This document shows positions 4,459 through 14,323 of a stretch of DNA of 64,000 bases, piece by piece. The position numbers were made by a program, and so were the translations under genes. The DNA lies in assembly GCA_018266295.1 (NCBI GenBank), contig JAFEAQ010000004.1:434001-498000 (forward strand), in the 5' to 3' direction. Each line of letters begins with the position of its first letter. Position 1 is the stretch's first letter. The notes under the pieces are model-generated. The model saw only the letters and a list, made by a program, of their open reading frames with translations, was not told the DNA's origin and did not search any database. This stretch comes from Bdellovibrionales bacterium (GTDB taxonomy: Bacteria; Bdellovibrionota; Bdellovibrionia; Bdellovibrionales; Bdellovibrionaceae).

Positions 4459-5294
4459 CACCGACCGAAATCACTTACTTTTTAGAGGTCTACCAAACGA
4501 AACACGTGTCCAAAGCGGCGATGCGACTTGGCATTACTCAGCCGACGTTGACACAGGCGCTGCAAAAGCTTGAGGAAAAGCTCAAAACCACGCTGTTTCA
4601 TAGAACAAAGCAAGGGGTTGTGCCAACGACGAGTGCGACGGTGTTCTATAGCCGTGCTAATAGTTTAAAAGAATGCTGGAGCGATATCCAAGATGGCGTC
4701 TTTAACTCTGACACAGAGATAGAAGGCTCGTTCGTGGTTGGTTGCCATCAAAGTGTGGGTGCTTATACAGCGCCAAGGCTTTTAAAGAACTTAGAGAAAG
4801 AGGCTCCGAAGCTCCATGTAAAATTTGTGCATGATTTTTCTCGTAAGATTACAGAGAAGGTCGTCTCCTACGAAGTCGATATGGGTTATGTCGTAAATCC
4901 TGCAAAGCATCCAGACCTAGTGTTCAAAAAGCTCGGCGACGATAGAGTAACGTTCTGGAAAAAGAAGGGTGCCGAGAATTTACCTAAGAGAATTTTTGCC
5001 GATGGCAGTCGCGCACAAACTGAAGATCTGCTTGGTAAAACGATGAAGAAACATTTTGGTGATTGGAAGATTGTCGAATCCACCAGCTTGGAACTGATTC
5101 GTACTTTGACGAGTCAAGGCTTGGGAGTTGGCGTTTTGCCAGAACGTGTGGCACATGCGGAAAGCAAGGATCTCGTGATTTTTGACAAGTCGTTGCCATC
5201 GCGCCCGGATGAAATTTATCTCGCCTATCGTAAGGAAGTTCTTTCTTCGAATGCAGGCCGCGAGCTCTTAAGACTTGCGACTTTCCCACTCTAG
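4449..5294 (+). CDS. LysR-family transcriptional regulator
   Basis: A 281-residue regulator with the LysR N-terminal winged helix-turn-helix: residues 5-60 read TEITYFLEVYQTKHVSKAA, then RLGITQPTLTQALQKLEEKL. A substrate-binding domain follows from about residue 90. It is transcribed divergently from the Cys-peptide/GRDP-like pair with 85 bases between the start codons. LysR proteins commonly control the divergent operon, so this pair is the likely target. No ligand can be inferred. The 3' end overlaps by 4 bases the end of the convergent acyltransferase-like gene. Confidence 0.9.
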   Translation: MIPTPTEITYFLEVYQTKHVSKAAMRLGITQPTLTQALQKLEEKLKTTLFHRTKQGVVPTTSATVFYSRANSLKECWSDIQDGVFNSDTEIEGSFVVGCHQSVGAYTAPRLLKNLEKEAPKLHVKFVHDFSRKITEKVVSYEVDMGYVVNPAKHPDLVFKKLGDDRVTFWKKKGAENLPKRIFADGSRAQTEDLLGKTMKKHFGDWKIVESTSLELIRTLTSQGLGVGVLPERVAHAESKDLVIFDKSLPSRPDEIYLAYRKEVLSSNAGRELLRLATFPL

Positions 5295-6352
5295 GGGTTT
5301 TTCGATGTCGCAACTTGTATGTTTCTAAATAAGCTCACGATAACACGTGTACTGAGTTCGGTGGCAACTAGAATGAAGATCCAAAAAAGATCCATCAAGC
5401 GCGGGCTATCAACGAACTTGTCATTCCACTGAAGCGCCAATGGCATAAAGGCGAATTCGATGAAGTAGCAAAGCCCGAAGTGTCGGTTCCAGCTAAGACT
5501 CGAGAGCCATCGAACAAAGACAAACTTACCGAGGAACTCGTTTACGCTATCAAGCCAGCTGAGTCTGAGCCAAATTAAAATGACAGCAAACCGACTCCAG
5601 AAAAACCACGGAGTGCCGGAAAACACATAATAATAAAACCCGGTGTTTGTGATCGAGATATTGTCATTAAAGGGAAAGAGCGCGATGAAAACCACAGCGA
5701 TGATGAGTAATACCGGAAGTTCCCACTTCAACCCTTTGTAAGCAACCGAAGTTTGTGGGAATTGACGAAGTAGGCGACCGATGGAAAACCCAAGAACCGG
5801 AATCGCTAGCCATGGTAGCAAGCCCCAACCGATGGTTTTATCCACATCCAAGTCACCTACAATGATCTGGCCGCCAAGTTCGCTAAAATTATTTTTTAAG
5901 CCCTGCCAATAATCCACCGGCACAGCCAAAAGCCCCAGCGAAACAAGGCTTAAGAGAGTTAGAATAACCTTATTCGATGGAATGAATTGCACGACAATAA
6001 TACTTAGGAACAAGTAACCGTAGAGATTCCACTCCCAGCTTGAAGGGTCCGAGAAATCAAACCTGTCATGGGCAAGCATCCCGATAAAACCGACGGTGAT
6101 AAGCAAATATCTTTGCCAGTTCAGACGTTTTTTTGAGTAGCCGATCAAGAAGAACGAGATAAATGCCAGAATGATTCCTGAATAACCCCAATAGTTCAAA
6201 AAGAAATCTGTCAGAAGGCCAAAGAAGGATTGTGTGGGGCCGAAGATCATTTTCTCTTGGCCGAAGCTTGTTTCCCAAACATGGTAAAACGTGACGACCA
6301 AGATGCAAAAACTACGAAAGATATCTAAAGCATAAAAACGCCGAGAGCTCAT
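5291..6352 (-). CDS. Acyltransferase-3-like polytopic membrane protein (paralog A)
   Basis: A 353-residue protein with about ten hydrophobic segments. The first helix reads ALDIFRSFCILVVTFYHVWE. The D-x-x-R then (F/Y)HVW pattern matches the start of acyltransferase-3 / OafA-like enzymes, where the Arg and His are important for acyl transfer to cell-surface substrates. It is clearly paralogous to the protein at 13209-14240 (shared FFLIG, DPSSWEW/DPSTWNW, GWGLLPWL/GWNILPWL, and SSLSWNRHFGLCYF against SSLRWNQRLGFCYL). ATG 6352 overlaps the stop of the aminopropyltransferase-like gene (ATGA), showing translational coupling. The acyl acceptor is unknown. Confidence 0.75.
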   Translation of the reverse strand: MSSRRFYALDIFRSFCILVVTFYHVWETSFGQEKMIFGPTQSFFGLLTDFFLNYWGYSGIILAFISFFLIGYSKKRLNWQRYLLITVGFIGMLAHDRFDFSDPSSWEWNLYGYLFLSIIVVQFIPSNKVILTLLSLVSLGLLAVPVDYWQGLKNNFSELGGQIIVGDLDVDKTIGWGLLPWLAIPVLGFSIGRLLRQFPQTSVAYKGLKWELPVLLIIAVVFIALFPFNDNISITNTGFYYYVFSGTPWFFWSRFAVILIWLRLSWLDSVNEFLGKFVFVRWLSSLSWNRHFGLCYFIEFAFMPLALQWNDKFVDSPRLMDLFWIFILVATELSTRVIVSLFRNIQVATSKNP

Positions 6353-7890
6353 TCCTCGAGTCTAGGCAATGTCGGTTTAAAAAGCGAGTGAACAAATTCG
6401 TCTTGCGCAGGGGGTAGTTCCGTTTGCGTGAACTCTTTTTTGAATTCTTCTAGTTTTAAGGAGCTTTCAGGAAGGTCCGAAGCAAAGACAAAGGTTTCAC
6501 CTTTTTCATAGGCGATAATGGAGCGAAACGGAACTTTGCGAAGGGTTGAATGAACAACGTCAGAACTCCCGCGAACTGGAAAGTCGAAGACGATGAACGA
6601 CTCAGGAGCCAGCCGCTTATGAAGCATACGATAGAATTCAAGGCTGAATAACTTTGCGACCTCATAGCTAAATGGATAAGGGAAATCGAGGAAAACGGCA
6701 TCCCAGGCTTCTTTGGTTTCGCGTAAGAAATGGAAGGCGTCGTCAGTAATTAAATGAACTTTGGGATTTAAAAGCGAGTTGCGGTTTAAATCCGTCCAGC
6801 GCGGATCTTCTTTAGCAAGACGAAGAATCATTGGATCTAGTTCCACCATCGTAATTTCCGTGGCGTCCGGTAGAGTCGCAAGTATGTCTCGCATCAAAAG
6901 GCCGTCGCCCGCACCCAAGATCAAAATCTTTTTGGGCGTAAAAGGGGCTAGCTTCAGCGCGCCCTGCAAAAAGGCATAGTGATACTCCTTTTCAAAGCGC
7001 GAATCGAACTGGAATTGACGGTTGAGATAAAGCTGAAAGAAAGGCCCATCGTCGTCAATACCATCAACGACATCAATTGCTTGGTAAGGGCTGAGAATCC
7101 GTTGGACTTTGATTTTATGAGCGAGATCACTGAAGTAACCCCCGATCTCAGAGAAAGAAGTCACTCTGTTGGGAAACCCATCGTAATAGGTCATCCTGAG
7201 TGCGATCTGCTGAAGGCTACTATGTGCCGCCGCAAGAACTGCGATAAAGAAAAAAGCTCCGATCAAAGAGGCATGGGCCGAAGCTTCTTTCTTAGGAAAA
7301 TGTGTGTAGATACTTAGGCAGAGACACCCGCTTAAGAAGGCGATCACTAAGGCACTGCCGTAAATTTCTAAATGAGGAATAACAAACACAGGAATGAGGA
7401 TCGAGGCCACCAGAGCACCGAAGTAACTAAAGGCAAGAATCTGGTTGAGGCCTTTTGGGTCTTCAGGTTGAGCGCGCATTCGAAAAAGCAAAGGAGTTTC
7501 GTACCCCGTGAGCGCACCCAGAATCAAAGATGTCATCCCGGAGCCCAAGGCAAAAAGCAGAGCAAGTGGAATCAGGCGAATCGAAAAATCACCGATTTGA
7601 ATATGGCGAAGCCCCGGCAAAAACGACAAGTAAGTGACAACCAAAGGTGAAACCGCACCAAGACACATCAGCATGAGCTCAATCTTGAAAAGACTATGCA
7701 AAGGATCCTTTGCTTTTGCAGACCGCTTACTGCCAATACCTATACCTAAGATAAATAGTGCGCTCGATAGGCAGAAACCGATGATCTCTTCACCTAAAGT
7801 CACCGCGAAGGTTTTTGCCATCAGACTTTGATAGGCAAACCCACAGAAGGACAGTGCGAATGATAGTACTTTTAATTTCCGATCACCCAT
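6349..7890 (-). CDS. Membrane-anchored spermidine-synthase-like protein
   Basis: A 513-residue protein starting at ATG 7890 (MGDRKLKV), which overlaps the end of the upstream gene by 19 bases. The frame stays open upstream, but that part is a shadow of the neighbour. Residues 1 to about 210 hold seven or so membrane helices. A Rossmann methyltransferase-like domain follows with ILILGAGDGLLMRDI and VELDPMILRLA, the pattern of spermidine synthases. Expected catalytic parts are altered: SRFEKEYHYAF stands where SxDExxYHExL is usual, and DFPYP replaces DxxDP. It may transfer an aminopropyl-like group to an unusual acceptor or be inactive. Confidence 0.75.
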   Translation of the reverse strand: MGDRKLKVLSFALSFCGFAYQSLMAKTFAVTLGEEIIGFCLSSALFILGIGIGSKRSAKAKDPLHSLFKIELMLMCLGAVSPLVVTYLSFLPGLRHIQIGDFSIRLIPLALLFALGSGMTSLILGALTGYETPLLFRMRAQPEDPKGLNQILAFSYFGALVASILIPVFVIPHLEIYGSALVIAFLSGCLCLSIYTHFPKKEASAHASLIGAFFFIAVLAAAHSSLQQIALRMTYYDGFPNRVTSFSEIGGYFSDLAHKIKVQRILSPYQAIDVVDGIDDDGPFFQLYLNRQFQFDSRFEKEYHYAFLQGALKLAPFTPKKILILGAGDGLLMRDILATLPDATEITMVELDPMILRLAKEDPRWTDLNRNSLLNPKVHLITDDAFHFLRETKEAWDAVFLDFPYPFSYEVAKLFSLEFYRMLHKRLAPESFIVFDFPVRGSSDVVHSTLRKVPFRSIIAYEKGETFVFASDLPESSLKLEEFKKEFTQTELPPAQDEFVHSLFKPTLPRLEE

Positions 7891-8567
7891 TTTTCCAACT
7901 GTTCCTGATAAAGATTGAAATAGCTGACGATAAACCAAGCTATGCCGAGAAATCCCGCGCCGATCGCTGAAACTTCCAGCGTGTGAATTTTCTTTTGGTG
8001 AAATCCCCAGACTATTCCACACACTAGTGCGAGTCCTAAATTGGCTAGCGCTAGCCACAGACTTGTTTTCAGAGTCCCCAATAAGCGATTTAAAAAAAGT
8101 GCAAACAGCAGTCCGGCAAAGAACATTCCCAGATAGTCTGTAAAGAGAGCTCGCTCCGTCTTGGCTTCTTCTTCGCTGGACTCGTTTAAGATTCGAAGAA
8201 TTAGCGGAAGCTCCATTCCGGAGAGGAAGCCAATAAGAATGATGAATAAGTAACTCACGAAGCTTGCATGGGCTCGGTATTCGATATCGGCGCCGACAAG
8301 GCAAAAAGGTGCAGCAATAGCTAAGCAAGATAAGGCGACTTCAATCCAGATGAAGCGCCTTTCAGCGGAGCCACGAATCGGAGTTAAGAAAGCCCCAACG
8401 CCCATCGAAGCAATATACACGCCGGTGGTGACAGTATATTGAAGAACGACGTCGCCCCAAAGAATGGAGAGAATTTGCGCAAGAACCAACTCATACGCGT
8501 AGCTACAAAAAGCTGTTATAAAAATCAAGGACAGTAAAAAACGAAAACGTCCAGCCGCTGTCATCAC
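7872..8567 (-). CDS. Polytopic membrane protein related to the membrane half of SpeE-like proteins
   Basis: A 231-residue protein with about seven hydrophobic segments. Its first helix, FCSYAYELVLAQILSILWG, resembles the start of the membrane domain of fused spermidine-synthase-like proteins, and the next gene begins similarly (FCGFAYQSLMAKTFAVTLG). The two genes therefore look like a split or duplicated pair: one membrane unit alone and one fused to the Rossmann domain. It overlaps the prepilin gene upstream by 4 bases and the downstream gene by 19, so all are translationally coupled. Confidence 0.7.
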   Translation of the reverse strand: MMTAAGRFRFLLSLIFITAFCSYAYELVLAQILSILWGDVVLQYTVTTGVYIASMGVGAFLTPIRGSAERRFIWIEVALSCLAIAAPFCLVGADIEYRAHASFVSYLFIILIGFLSGMELPLILRILNESSEEEAKTERALFTDYLGMFFAGLLFALFLNRLLGTLKTSLWLALANLGLALVCGIVWGFHQKKIHTLEVSAIGAGFLGIAWFIVSYFNLYQEQLEKWVIGN

Positions 8568-9337
8568 CAGCCTTGGGTTGTCGCTGCTGGTTTAGAGAAT
8601 AAGTAAGTTTGACGGATTAATTCGTTGGCCGCGCATGCGCCGCCATTTTTCACACAGAAAGAAACTTTTAAACATTGAAAGGGGTTTGCAGCTCCAGGTG
8701 TGCAGTCCGGAGCTTCGGGACGGCTTCGAACGCCCATGTTCATAACAATACTATTTACTGAGGAAGCTGCAGGCAATCCAGGCATAAAGGTCTCGAGATT
8801 GGCTTTGGCCTCAGGAATTGCCCAGTCCTTCATAAAGGCGACGCTGGCTTCTTTGAAGAGGGCCCATTTTTCGTCATTTGAAAGCGGTGTTGGTTCTAAA
8901 GCGACTTCCCATTCATTGGGAGTTTTCATACGCACTTGGAGATTACTTTGATCAATGCAGATATCCAAGCTTGTGCCCGCTGCGCGTTTTGTGCAGAGGT
9001 TATTGAATTCCCAGCAGAGACGGATCGGAGCGGCTGTTCCCGCACCGATTGTTGTGATTTTACCAGGGCAGCCGTAGTCATCTGTCGCGGGACTGCCAGC
9101 AGTTTGGGGCCGTAAATCTTGCAGATAATTTGCGCGGTCGTAAGCGTTCTTTAAAGAGACCGAGAACTTCTCAATCGCAATTTCAGAGTCAAAGAACGCG
9201 CGTGATTTGTCGTAAGTTTTTGTGAGGTCACCCATCTTGTGAGTAATGCCGACGATCATAATACCCACGATCACGGCGATTGCGATCACAAGCATCGCCC
9301 CCACATACCCGCGCTGATTTTTTAAGAAGGATTTCAT
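8564..9337 (-). CDS. PilX-like minor prepilin
   Basis: A 257-residue protein with the N-terminus MKSFLKNQRG-YVGAMLVIAIAVIVGIM: a short basic leader, a Gly cleavage site and a hydrophobic helix, as in class III-type prepilin substrates. The Glu at mature position 5 is missing, as in some PilX or GspK-like subunits. The exported domain holds several cysteines (GCPGKI, RLCWEFNNLC, ICID, DCTPG, CLKVSFC). It lies 9 bases after the second prepilin gene and overlaps the next gene by 4 bases. It is likely a minor pilin or initiation-complex subunit. Confidence 0.75.
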   Translation of the reverse strand: MKSFLKNQRGYVGAMLVIAIAVIVGIMIVGITHKMGDLTKTYDKSRAFFDSEIAIEKFSVSLKNAYDRANYLQDLRPQTAGSPATDDYGCPGKITTIGAGTAAPIRLCWEFNNLCTKRAAGTSLDICIDQSNLQVRMKTPNEWEVALEPTPLSNDEKWALFKEASVAFMKDWAIPEAKANLETFMPGLPAASSVNSIVMNMGVRSRPEAPDCTPGAANPFQCLKVSFCVKNGGACAANELIRQTYLFSKPAATTQGW

Positions 9338-9346
9338 ACGTGCTCC

Positions 9347-10375
9347 TTAATTGCGTTTCAGCTGACCTGATGGGTAAGAGGGTTTTAGGAAATATACTAA
9401 GTCGAAGGGACGACGATTCATCGGGCGGCGCAAGTTGCGAAGGGATGTCGGAGTTTCGCTCGTCACCTGCATTTGTGCCGACGACAAGCCAATGATGTTA
9501 TTTCTGAAGATGACACGAATCACGCGCTCGACATCGCGGTAAGGAGTCGTGGTCTGGCATTGAGCGGTCGTCATGTATGTTGGCGGACACCATGTGTATC
9601 CGCGGGCGTCGTTGCCTTTAGGTAAATACTCGCGCACGGTGACCTTAAAACTCACGGAAGAGAGACGTCTTCTGCCAACGGTTGTCTGATCTGCATCTGG
9701 GTTATCAACATCGAAAGGAATAGATTCAGCTTCAACGGCTTTAAAATCTACGATGGATCCAAACCACAAATCATCACGCGTTGGCGAGAGCGCAACAGTG
9801 CCGCCGGCTTGTGACTGACCAAGATCAATATAGAGGACACCGAAAGTGCGTGGTGTTGGGCGCTGAAAATAAATCGCTGTCGGCATATAGCGATCAGCCG
9901 GAGCAGGAGCAGCGCCGGTGTAATCACTCTGCAAATTGTCTCGAAGAAAGAACCCAATGGTGTCGATATTTGCTGCCGCTGTTGCAGGATTAAACGTCGA
10001 TGCGAAATCGTAATCCCCGCGGACCCAACCAATGTTCTCTCTTGTACCCGAACCTGATCTATTGTTCAGATCAACACCGGGGCTATATTCGACGTTCACT
10101 CCCATGGAGAGAACGTGTTTGAGATAAAAAGAAATCTCGTTAATTTGAGCTTCAGATTGAATGCGATTTGTGAGTGACTCATTCTGGGTCGCCGCCATGT
10201 TCATGAGTGTTCCAATTCCGTAGAGTAACACCGAAACAAGCACAACTGCGAGGAGGACTTCCATCAGGGAAAAGCCTTGTTGGCTCAACAAGATACTGTT
10301 AGACTTTAAACAACGGCAACTTGTTGTATTTTCGGGGGCTTTTGGATGTTTCGGGGGAACAAATCGTATTGTCAT
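9347..10375 (-). CDS. PilW-like minor prepilin
   Basis: A 342-residue frame with the type IV prepilin motif SQQG-FSLMEVLLAVVLVSVLLYGIG, including Glu at mature position 5. From ATG 10375 the leader is about 34 residues, unusually long. A TTG start at about 10291 or 10288 would give a normal 6-7 residue leader (LLSQQG) and would also remove the head-to-head overlap with the divergent gene, but neither start has an obvious ribosome site. The exported domain is typical of PilW/GspJ-size subunits. It heads the operon that continues into PilX-like and aminopropyltransferase-like genes. Confidence 0.8.
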   Translation of the reverse strand: MTIRFVPPKHPKAPENTTSCRCLKSNSILLSQQGFSLMEVLLAVVLVSVLLYGIGTLMNMAATQNESLTNRIQSEAQINEISFYLKHVLSMGVNVEYSPGVDLNNRSGSGTRENIGWVRGDYDFASTFNPATAAANIDTIGFFLRDNLQSDYTGAAPAPADRYMPTAIYFQRPTPRTFGVLYIDLGQSQAGGTVALSPTRDDLWFGSIVDFKAVEAESIPFDVDNPDADQTTVGRRRLSSVSFKVTVREYLPKGNDARGYTWCPPTYMTTAQCQTTTPYRDVERVIRVIFRNNIIGLSSAQMQVTSETPTSLRNLRRPMNRRPFDLVYFLKPSYPSGQLKRN

Positions 10376-13222
10376 AACCGTATATCGGGCTTCTCATCTC
10401 TTGAGATGATGGTGGCGATTGGTATTCTTGCTACTATCTTTATTCTAGCAATGCCTTTCTTTAGCCAACAAGGAAAAATTGTTAAACAACTAAGAACCTC
10501 TGCAAACTGCCAGGCTATTCTTGACACTGCTTTTGCGCGCGTGAATTCATTCGGAAATTCTTTGGATGGTCACCAAGCTTTGGTGAATCCGGCGATGACA
10601 CTCACAACGGGCGCAAATGCTGCGACCTTATTGGCATATCAAATTCCTGCTGTTCAGCCTAACGCCTATGACCCGGCTTTTGCGTCACAAAGAGCGACAA
10701 TGTATGGTCTAGCTCCGGGTGGAGCGCTTTATACTGAGAACGGTCCGAAGAATGTTCTTCTTCCTCCGGATACAGCTCCGGTTACACAAACAATTCAGCA
10801 TGATGGTGTCACTTTATATACTCCGCTTTTGCTCAAAGGTTCGATGGAGTACTTGGCGACGAAATACAATGCGGGTCACTGCGATGCTTTTGCCCCTGTT
10901 CAGCTTTTAACAAACACGGATTCAAATGCTTTGAGTAGTTTGTTTCAAGGTGGCCTCAAAGATCTTCGTTTAAGCATGAAGGTTAGCCGTTATGACATTG
11001 CTTCGAATCAGTTGAACGGAGCATCTTGTGGAACATTCTGGCCGCGTCCCCGTAACGGCGCGCGCTCAAGCATCGTGTATGAACCGCAATTTGGTAATGG
11101 CGTCACAGCACCAAGACAAATCATCGGACAATTCCCCGCTTGGATTCAAGATACTGATGGCTTCCGTGTTACTATGCGCGCGCAGTATACGAATGATAAA
11201 GGTCAGACTGAAGACTGCGACGGCACGAAAGACTTCTCTTTGCCAGAAGACAAGCAAAACGTTTCTGATTATTTCTATGACGTCAGCTATGTGAAAGCTT
11301 CGCCGGTAGATACTTCAAAAATCGTCGATGATTACTATCGCATGAGAAATGGAACAGTCTGTAACGGTGGAAACTGTTTGGGTCACCCGTTCGAAACCAT
11401 TTATACCAACTTACAACCATACAATGCTGCGAATCCAGATTGGCCGGAAAATCGTGATAGACCTCTGTGTTCGCAGACTCCGGCTAACAACACGAGCATG
11501 GTTGTCAGCATCCGCGTTTATAACACTCAAAAAGAACCGGGCCTTGTGCCGATGTGTATGGATACTTCGAACCAGTGGTTCAAAAACTATTCTGGCAATT
11601 GGTGTCCTGGATCATATAACGGTGGAGCAGAACAAAGTTTCGATAAGAGTTGGAACATGCGTTACACAGGCTGGGTGCCATGTGAGCACATGCAGTTCTG
11701 CAACTCGCGTCCTGACCGCGTGGAAGTTGTTAAGAGCACAGGAACGAACAGCAAAATTCCTGGCGCCGGTGTTTCTGGTCAGCCTTACGTAGAATACAGA
11801 TATCACTACGACAATATTTCTGGTGATAAGAACAACCCGCGTATGTGGGGTTGTGAAATGAAATTTGGCGTGGCGATGCTCGATATGGCCGGGAATTTAA
11901 GTTACGTTCCAGCTGTTGAAGGTATTCAAGCCGATTCTTATATTGCGGGTGATAAGCGTCCGCCGATTAAAGAAATTAATCCGCATGTCTATTTCAAGCC
12001 ACCTCCTTGTTACACTTGTAACTGTAAGCCTTGTAAGGGTGGTAAAGGCCTCTTTGGTGGTTTATTCAACTGGTTCTTATTCGTAGTTCTTGTTGTCGTG
12101 AGCGGTGGTTTGTTCGGGGTTATCGGTGCCGTGATTGTCGGTGCGATGTGCTTGAACGGTGGCCTCGGCTGCTACAGTGGCGGTGGCACCAACTATGCTC
12201 CTTCCACCAGTGGAGGGAAATACAGGTCCTGCGATGACAGTAATAACGGATGTAAGTGCGGTCAGAAGTGTAATGCGATTAAACCGCCGGCTCCGCCATG
12301 GTCTTCGCCTTGGATTGAAGGCTTTGATATTTCTAAGCTTGAACAAAACGCCTGTGCGCCAGGAAGTACTTTCTATTACAATGGCGCCCCAATGAATTCT
12401 GTTGGCGGTATGACTCCGACTCTTGCGTACAAAGTTCCAAAAGGAACTGGTGGTGCTGGTTACGATTACATGACCAATGCGACGACGGATAAGATCCAGC
12501 CGGGTGATGAAGTGATGTGGTCGGCGTTTGATGCGGCCAACTCTCGTTTCTGTTATGTAGCGACTCGTTGTGCTCAAGGAAAACTGCAAGTGATCAAGGA
12601 AAGCAGTGAAGTTCCTGGAGATAACAACTTGTATCCGCTGATGGGCTGTTCAACAGTACGAACGGGTAAGAAGATTGCCTTCAATAACAGTCAGTACGGT
12701 ATTGCTCAAGGTGGTAACGCCTGCTTGGAAGTGGAGTTCATGACGGGTCCACAAAATCCGAGTGGCACAGCGCTTTGGAATTGGTCTAAGTATAACGAGC
12801 AATGCTCATTGACGAATTCAACAGGGAATATCTCAACAGATCCTCGCGTTGTTGGTGGGAACTGCCCTCAGAGCTCGCCAATTGCGACAAACAGTATGAC
12901 CGCCGGCGCGACGCAAATGCAGAACGGGCCCGGTTGTGCCAAGGGAACTCAGGATCCAAATGATCCGGATACAATCAACTTTGCTTGTAAGGCGACGAAA
13001 CTTTACTGGGATGGATGTGCGGCGGCCGGCGCGAAGGGCGCAAGCTCTAGCTGCTATATGTGGTGCTATGCGGAGTGTACAGTTCCAACGTATATTCCAG
13101 AGCATCCATGGGTAGATGATCCGAACCATAAGTCTCAACGTTACTATGAGCCAATGGCTGCGGGTGATGCAAACTTGCCATTCTGTACAATGGATAGAAA
13201 ACAGTTCGATGCAGGCTTCTAG
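10346..13222 (+). CDS. Very large Cys-rich prepilin-like protein
   Basis: A 958-residue protein starting at ATG 10346 after a GGGGG ribosome site. The N-terminus carries a prepilin motif, ISG-FSSLEMMVAIGILATIFILAM, so it should be processed and inserted like a pilin. The exported part is very long and Cys-rich, with clusters CYTCNCKPCKGG (about residues 552-564) and CDDSNNGCKCGQKC (about 626-642). Between them, at about residues 566-610, is a second long hydrophobic Gly/Val stretch. No known tip-adhesin domain is recognised. The size suggests a pilus-tip subunit. The gene overlaps the following acyltransferase-like gene by 14 bases. Confidence 0.75.
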   Translation: MFRGNKSYCHNRISGFSSLEMMVAIGILATIFILAMPFFSQQGKIVKQLRTSANCQAILDTAFARVNSFGNSLDGHQALVNPAMTLTTGANAATLLAYQIPAVQPNAYDPAFASQRATMYGLAPGGALYTENGPKNVLLPPDTAPVTQTIQHDGVTLYTPLLLKGSMEYLATKYNAGHCDAFAPVQLLTNTDSNALSSLFQGGLKDLRLSMKVSRYDIASNQLNGASCGTFWPRPRNGARSSIVYEPQFGNGVTAPRQIIGQFPAWIQDTDGFRVTMRAQYTNDKGQTEDCDGTKDFSLPEDKQNVSDYFYDVSYVKASPVDTSKIVDDYYRMRNGTVCNGGNCLGHPFETIYTNLQPYNAANPDWPENRDRPLCSQTPANNTSMVVSIRVYNTQKEPGLVPMCMDTSNQWFKNYSGNWCPGSYNGGAEQSFDKSWNMRYTGWVPCEHMQFCNSRPDRVEVVKSTGTNSKIPGAGVSGQPYVEYRYHYDNISGDKNNPRMWGCEMKFGVAMLDMAGNLSYVPAVEGIQADSYIAGDKRPPIKEINPHVYFKPPPCYTCNCKPCKGGKGLFGGLFNWFLFVVLVVVSGGLFGVIGAVIVGAMCLNGGLGCYSGGGTNYAPSTSGGKYRSCDDSNNGCKCGQKCNAIKPPAPPWSSPWIEGFDISKLEQNACAPGSTFYYNGAPMNSVGGMTPTLAYKVPKGTGGAGYDYMTNATTDKIQPGDEVMWSAFDAANSRFCYVATRCAQGKLQVIKESSEVPGDNNLYPLMGCSTVRTGKKIAFNNSQYGIAQGGNACLEVEFMTGPQNPSGTALWNWSKYNEQCSLTNSTGNISTDPRVVGGNCPQSSPIATNSMTAGATQMQNGPGCAKGTQDPNDPDTINFACKATKLYWDGCAAAGAKGASSSCYMWCYAECTVPTYIPEHPWVDDPNHKSQRYYEPMAAGDANLPFCTMDRKQFDAGF

Positions 13223-14240
13223 CGTTCAACTTATTAAACGCATTTACGGATTTGATCTTTTAAGAATCGCCACAGTGTTGGCGATTCTTTATTTTCACGT
13301 GTGGCAGTTTTCATTCTTCGAAGACGTGATCACTCTGCCGCCAGAAATTTCAGGCTATCACAACCTGACCGACTGGGTGGGGCCGGTGTTTAAGTACGGC
13401 GGACTTTTTATTGTCGCTCTTTCGTTCTTCCTTATTGGTTTTAAAGCAAAGTCCCATCACATTAGCCGGTTCTTTATTCTGATCATCGGTGTGATTGGCT
13501 TACAAATTCTGAGTGCTGAAGATCCCGCAGACCCGAGCACTTGGAACTGGGATGTCTATTCCTATCTGGTGTTTTCTTACATCTTTGTAATGTTGGTGAC
13601 GAAGAACCTTTATGTGCGCCTATCGCTGATGATTGCGAGCATTGCGGTGTTAAGTATTCCCTACGAAGTCTATGCGCCGCTGTTAAAGATCCCCGACTCT
13701 GTTCAGTTCACGGGTTGGAACATTCTTCCGTGGCTGGGATTGCCGGTGTTATTCCATTCCCTTGGACTTCTCTGGCGGGAGAAAGTTCCGGGAACATTCT
13801 TGAAACTTCAAATATATGAATGGCCGATTTGGATTGCTTTGATCGCGACCTTTTACTTTTTGTCACCGGACGCGGGAGCATTCCCCGCGGGACCTGGGTT
13901 TGAAGCATTCGTTTTTAAGCAGAAACCGTTGCTGTTCTGGCTCCATATGTCGGCTTTTACCTTTTTAATGCGCCTGAGTTTGGATCCGAGAGTGAACCAG
14001 TTACTATCCCAAGCGAAACCAGTTGAATGGGTTTCATCCCTCCGCTGGAATCAGCGCCTGGGTTTTTGCTACTTACTTCAGTTTGTTTTCCTTCCGCTCG
14101 GCCCGATGATGATGAGTTTTTGGGGGGAACACCCTCGTGCCTTCGACTGGTTATGGCTTTTCATTTTTATTGCCGTCGAGCTTGTTGCACGCGTTGTGCT
14201 AAACAGCAAAGTGCTGTTTAAGCGAATTGGCCTGATGTAG
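13209..14240 (+). CDS. Acyltransferase-3-like polytopic membrane protein (paralog B)
   Basis: A 343-residue protein starting at ATG 13209 inside the last codons of the giant prepilin gene, which implies translational coupling. The first helix, GFDLLRIATVLAILYFHVWQF, has the D-x-x-R...FHVW pattern of acyltransferase-3 enzymes. About ten hydrophobic segments follow. It aligns along its length with the protein at 5291-6352. Two paralogs, each at the end of one arm of a divergent prepilin locus, suggest two related acyl or surface modifications, or a heteromeric enzyme. Confidence 0.75.
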   Translation: MQASSVQLIKRIYGFDLLRIATVLAILYFHVWQFSFFEDVITLPPEISGYHNLTDWVGPVFKYGGLFIVALSFFLIGFKAKSHHISRFFILIIGVIGLQILSAEDPADPSTWNWDVYSYLVFSYIFVMLVTKNLYVRLSLMIASIAVLSIPYEVYAPLLKIPDSVQFTGWNILPWLGLPVLFHSLGLLWREKVPGTFLKLQIYEWPIWIALIATFYFLSPDAGAFPAGPGFEAFVFKQKPLLFWLHMSAFTFLMRLSLDPRVNQLLSQAKPVEWVSSLRWNQRLGFCYLLQFVFLPLGPMMMSFWGEHPRAFDWLWLFIFIAVELVARVVLNSKVLFKRIGLM

Positions 14241-14295: not shown

Positions 14296-14323
14296 CCTTC
14301 GCCCCTGTGAAAAACGGCGAAGG
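14296..14323 (+). promoter_or_regulatory. 5'-UTR hairpin covering part of the ribosome site
   Basis: CCTTCGCC (14296-14303) and GGCGAAGG (14316-14323) form a perfect 8-bp stem with a 12-base loop. The 3' arm includes AAGG of the AAGGAG ribosome site for the GTG start at 14331, so folding could limit translation. The predicted transcription start is near 14298, which may shorten the 5' arm. Confidence 0.4.

Follow-up and report, generated by a model that had tools for sequence, protein, structure and literature searches.

Several described systems resemble parts of the locus reported here. In Neisseria, PglI-type O-acetylation of the pilin glycan is carried out by an AT3 enzyme that acts on a pilin-linked group; however, the acceptor in that system is a glycan, and no aminopropyltransferase takes part. 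Tip pilins of the GspK/PilX type lack Glu5, and SpeD makes the aminopropyl donor, decarboxylated SAM (dcSAM). Membrane spermidine synthases of the PRK03612 (NF002956) type combine a 7-transmembrane-helix (7-TM) part with a SpeE-type Rossmann domain. In Kluyveromyces SpdS, three Asp residues have separate tasks, namely, capture of the aminopropyl group (Asp98), deprotonation of putrescine (Asp167), and positioning of putrescine (Asp170) (PMC10146546). DxxRx10H is a motif of AT3 proteins (PMC12423673). Genetics and models indicate that one large pilin and two smaller pilins form an interchangeable tip in the Kil pilus of Myxococcus (PMC12075869). In contrast to the present locus, neither an acyltransferase nor a spermidine synthase appears in the text of that paper, and a literature search covering few subscription journals found no description of pilins paired with spermidine synthase or aminopropyl transfer.

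The window analyzed in the present study is a stretch of 64,000 nucleotides from a Bdellovibrionales bacterium with a genome of 4.2 Mb. Inspection of open reading frames (ORFs) identified seven tightly packed genes at 5291-14240, arranged in two divergent (head-to-head) arms. The left arm (minus strand) encodes a PilW-like prepilin, a PilX-like prepilin, MEM (the membrane half), SPEE (a SpeE-like fusion), and AT1. The right arm (plus strand) encodes the 958-aa prepilin BIG followed by AT2. The junctions of the left arm are a 9-bp gap (PilW/PilX), a GTGATGA overlap (PilX/MEM), a 19-bp overlap (MEM/SPEE), and an ATGA overlap (SPEE/AT1), and BIG and AT2 overlap by 14 bp. The initial annotation had described seven genes in two head-to-head arms with overlaps or minimal gaps, and this layout was borne out after the correction of two starts. 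SPEE starts at ATG 7890 (the mechanical ORF from TTG 8328 runs over the neighboring gene), and AT2 most likely starts at ATG 13209 rather than at 13116, as in the mechanical ORF. A promoter scan detected fewer promoter-like sites than in shuffled sequences and was, hence, uninformative.

Conservation of the gene order in relatives had been set beforehand as a check on the annotation, and four other family members, each a different species (genomes G013, G016, G018, and G023), carry all seven genes in exactly this order. SPEE and AT1 share 57-59% identity with their counterparts in these genomes, and BIG shares 62-65%. BIG was found in only seven of the 66 family genomes. The more distant G028 and G065 carry BIG with PilW, PilX, and AT, although G065 has no SpeE-type gene anywhere in its genome. 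In the island-bearing relatives, the island and three further genes sit between the conserved genes c1 and c2. Since other genes occupy this position in G003 and G009, the c1-c2 interval is a variable slot. The immediate flanks of the island in the window genome differ from those in the relatives; a deaminase gene at 14307 and the genes c16 and c17 near the island are also present in that chromosomal region in G024.

HMM annotation across Bdellovibrionota revealed a recurring set of MEM, SPEE, AT, a PilW-type prepilin, and a PilX-type prepilin, with stable content and variable gene order. The usual additional members of related loci are an N-terminally anchored protein of ~250 aa, a secreted protein of ~250 aa, and a 7-TM protein, and BIG is absent from most of these loci. 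The secreted protein, encoded between SPEE and AT in relatives, yielded no convincing family, and its gene is absent from the window. Prepilin-like neighbors were present at 25 of the 26 non-duplicate MEM/SPEE loci of the derived clade. The lone exception (L037) lies close to the end of its contig, and the genome in question carries AT with three prepilin-like genes on a different contig. With 19 prepilin hits grouped, by our own grouping, into about 13 clusters in 4.2 Mb, ~6% of random positions would fall within 10 kb of a prepilin cluster; since the loci are related, this figure is a rough yardstick and no formal test. Because the seven-gene order recurs in four genomes and the enzyme and prepilin genes are neighbors at nearly all of these loci, the arrangement is not due to chance. 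The pairing of MEM/SPEE with pilins is conserved across the phylum. MEM/SPEE also occur without nearby pilins in the basal lineages L060-L062 and at L059 and L066, both of which are short contigs. The enzymes and the pilins are, thus, strongly associated, although there are exceptions on both sides, and neither strictly needs the other. For this reason, the acceptor of the enzymes could be a lipid.

MEM (7872..8567, minus strand, starting at GTG 8567 or ATG 8564) is a second 7-TM half of 231 aa with a partial match to NF002956 (E 2e-36). SPEE (6349..7890, minus strand, 513 aa) consists of a 7-TM part and a SpeE-type Rossmann domain. MEM and SPEE form a single polypeptide in L033/L064, L035, L046, L051, L053, and L066, and these natural fusions are 731-833 aa in length. 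Because they are fused in several relatives, we read MEM and SPEE as halves of one machine; on this comparison, they make up a single bipartite protein. The initial annotation had tied a pilus-type assembly to membrane modifying enzymes. This interpretation is partly supported: a link of this kind fits the evidence, but the annotation had missed that the two SpeE-like genes encode halves of one protein, as well as the probable donor and the altered acceptor site described below.

SPEE matched PF01564 (Spermine_synth) with 57.1 bits, above the cut-off of 22.9, and SpeE-type proteins in a PDB profile search. The fused relative L064 has a predicted SpeE fold (Z 22.9). The cut-off of NF002956 (472 bits) was not reached by SPEE (234) or MEM (125), and an identity as the fused MFS/spermidine synthase NF037959 was rejected (19 bits; cut-off, 40). 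The MEM-paired SPEE proteins formed a clade apart from the PRK03612-like membrane spermidine synthases, with a support of 0.97-0.99. This clade keeps the GGGDG-type, VELD-type, and DDAF-type Asp residues, together with the Gln of SPYQ and the YH pair; neither the donor (GGGDG/GAGDG) Asp nor the catalytic Asp varies. In contrast to the donor site, which has the same motifs as PRK03612, the acceptor site is altered. The second Asp of DxxD, the acceptor Asp, is present in 72 of 72 PRK03612-like proteins and in both SpeD-SpeE fusions compared, whereas the corresponding DFPxP position in the MEM-paired clade is Tyr, Phe, Leu, Asn, or His. In the window, the motif is DFPYP (residues 402-406; 6673..6687, minus strand), with the catalytic Asp402 kept and Tyr405 in place of the acceptor Asp. 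Only L025/L065 keep the acceptor Asp in this clade, and a second SPEE copy in L030 (DFPEG), at the clade base, is an outlier. According to our own alignment, the lost residue would be the equivalent of Asp170 in Kluyveromyces SpdS. SPEE also differs from PRK03612 proteins in its pairing with a second 7-TM half and in its pilin and TmAT neighbors.

Other membrane SpeE-like genes were noted during these comparisons. The window genome encodes membrane-SpeE-like fusions of 743-751 aa without the GGGDG Asp (L008:7242-13038 and L007:6379-8616), and that of L007 is the last gene of a second large-pilin cluster. A separate PRK03612-type SpeE cluster at L032, L034, L036, L039, L040, L041, and L045 has zinc-ribbon-like proteins upstream and a protein of ~550 aa downstream (FAD/amine-oxidase-like in L040). 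Most of these loci share the 7-TM family of the pilin-linked module.

The genomic context of SpeD points to dcSAM as the donor. SpeD is fused to the N terminus of MEM in the Bacteriovorax-type loci L061:8886-9953 and L062:8904-9974, lies between MEM and SPEE in the Omnitrophota locus L060, and adjoins AT in L025 and L046. The window genome encodes one SpeD, as a fusion with a canonical SpeE, outside the island. No recognizable SpeD was found in six module-bearing genomes (G088, G151, G153, G216, G250, and G256), yet stand-alone SpeE is kept in them, which implies an undetected source of dcSAM. G277 (L053) and G223 (L050) encode a membrane SpeE-type protein, but neither a recognizable SpeD nor a stand-alone SpeE. 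We infer that dcSAM is probably the donor of SPEE in the window organism as well.

AT1 (5291..6352, minus strand, 353 aa) and its paralog AT2 (13209..14240, plus strand) share 33% identity. The DxxRx10H motif in TMH1 of the AT3 family is exact in both proteins (Asp10, Arg13, and His24 of AT1 at 6281..6325, minus strand; 13254-13298 in AT2) and nearly invariant in the AT family alignment. The Arg of TMH3 (RxxR) is not conserved across this alignment, which may set the family apart from the AT3/OafA-type, HGSNAT, and GWT1 members of the TmAT superfamily. Neither window protein matched any Pfam model over its cut-off, including PF01757 (Acyl_transf_3). Among the relatives, three matched HGSNAT_cat (PF07786) and two matched PF01757 weakly. 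The structures closest to the AlphaFold model of AT1 (pLDDT 71.6) were GWT1, at Z 10.2 for an alignment of 301 residues, and HGSNAT, at Z 7.9 for 292 residues, and the next, unrelated structures gave Z ≤5.4 over about 60 residues; for helical proteins, Z values of this size are weak on their own. The exact motif and the Pfam matches in relatives back the predicted fold and the ~10 TM helices shared with the superfamily, and we, therefore, firmly place AT1 and AT2 in the TmAT superfamily as predicted acyltransferases. The initial annotation, with its label "acyltransferase-like", had missed this motif and fold. A profile search of 291 genomes with the AT family was bimodal, with 27 at E < 1e-24 and the remaining matches at 1e-9 or weaker. 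A home-made AT3 profile from ten neighboring AT3 proteins revealed no link to the AT family (hhalign probability 22%), Foldseek alone found no significant match to the AT model, and there were no matches for the AT family in a profile search of the PDB or for AT1 and BIG in PHROGs.

The PilW-like protein (9347..10375, minus strand, 342 aa from the ORF start) scored 23.3 bits against TIGR02532 (type IV prepilin, GFxxxE domain; cut-off 16.3) and also exceeded the cut-off of PF07963. Its start is uncertain. The ORF reaching 10375 overlaps the BIG gene, and TTG 10288, which is kept in relatives and gives a typical short leader (MSQQG), is the likelier true start from the start alignment. The PilX/GspK-like prepilin (8564..9337, minus strand, 257 aa) is a member of a conserved family; it lacks Glu5. 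BIG (10346..13222, plus strand) contains 37 Cys and has orthologs in relatives; its prepilin-type N-terminal motif is visible (GFSSLEMMVAIGIL), and no curated model scored above its cut-off. A conserved CxxCxCxxC is followed by a Gly-rich hydrophobic stretch in the middle of the ectodomain (residues 567-602; 12044..12151, plus strand), which is conserved in relatives and exceeds the pilin helix in hydrophobicity. With Cys motifs on both sides, this stretch is reminiscent of membrane-inserting segments. The use of these three proteins in a pilus is suggested by their prepilin-type N termini only. None of the seven genes encodes a pilus ATPase, platform protein, or secretin, as judged by Pfam and curated models. 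The island resembles the Kil Tip complexes (KilL/M/N; PMC12075869) in combining a single large pilin-like protein with two smaller ones, in its many Cys, and in the presence of several paralogous sets per genome; however, the Kil pilins are of the TadE/F/G type, whereas the N termini in the island are of the PilW type. Four further clusters in the window genome (L006, L007, L154, and L155) encode a PilX-like protein of 837-992 aa with smaller prepilins and are possibly alternative pilus tips.

The evidence is best explained by a minor-pilin tip cassette that is bundled with a dedicated inner-membrane module for modification in two steps, aminopropylation and then acylation, a reading to which we give slightly less than an even chance. 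Arguments against it are the loci at which the enzymes or the pilins occur without the other, the module genomes without a recognizable SpeD, and the lack of BIG at most related loci. The pilus machine served would be of the type IV pilus type and encoded elsewhere in the genome. The tip would be assembled from the PilW-like protein, the PilX-like protein, and BIG, the last of which would be exposed. MEM and SPEE would act as one 14-TM enzyme, the Rossmann domain of which, presumably cytoplasmic, would transfer an aminopropyl group from dcSAM to an acceptor other than the usual free polyamines. Next, AT1 and AT2 would move an acyl group from acyl-CoA across the membrane to an extracytoplasmic acceptor, possibly the new amine, and the pilus tip would present or deliver the modified product. 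The main candidates for the acceptor are a tip protein and a membrane lipid. The more specific proposal, namely, that a tip protein or tip-anchored lipid is aminopropylated from dcSAM by the bipartite enzyme and then acylated through the membrane, is somewhat unlikely as it stands.

The enzymes may instead make a lipid-linked compound or a membrane lipid, aminopropylated and then acylated, that stays separate from the pilins, with the pilins delivering, sensing, or co-secreting it. The number of TM helices (14) points to an acceptor embedded in the membrane, the MEM/SPEE pair persists at L059-L062 without nearby pilins, and the known substrates of TmAT enzymes are mainly glycans and the GPI precursor (PMC12423673). 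However, the adjacency of prepilin-like genes throughout nearly all of the derived clade argues against this alternative, as does G065, in which AT stays with BIG, PilW, and PilX without a SpeE-type gene, and we consider it unlikely. It is, in our view, highly improbable that MEM-SPEE uses SAM to methylate protein amines, such as that of the mature pilin N terminus. The precedent is METTL13, the SpeE-related C-terminal domain of which methylates the N terminus of eEF1A (PMC6109062). The structure of METTL13 appeared at Z 18.6 in the structure comparison of the L064 fold, SpeD is missing in some module genomes, and the pilin N terminus lies at the cytoplasmic membrane face. However, all members of the MEM-paired clade keep the Asp responsible for aminopropyl capture in SpeE, several relatives carry SpeD as a fusion or as a neighbor, and prepilin peptidase already N-methylates pilins. 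The SpeE-type domain and the SpeD neighbors in relatives would also fit an enzyme that makes or modifies polyamines beside pilin genes whose proximity merely reflects the high gene density of the island, but this is very doubtful given the loss of the acceptor Asp, the canonical SpeE encoded elsewhere in the window genome, and the recurrence of the enzyme-pilin association in varied gene orders.

If the island is a tip cassette with its own modification module, polyamine-type chemistry would decorate a surface structure, and an unrecognized clade of SpeE-like membrane enzymes, in which the acceptor site is altered, would gain a testable role. The recurring package in Bdellovibrionota provides a defined gene set for knockouts, and the swapping of chemically tailored pilus tips would become testable.
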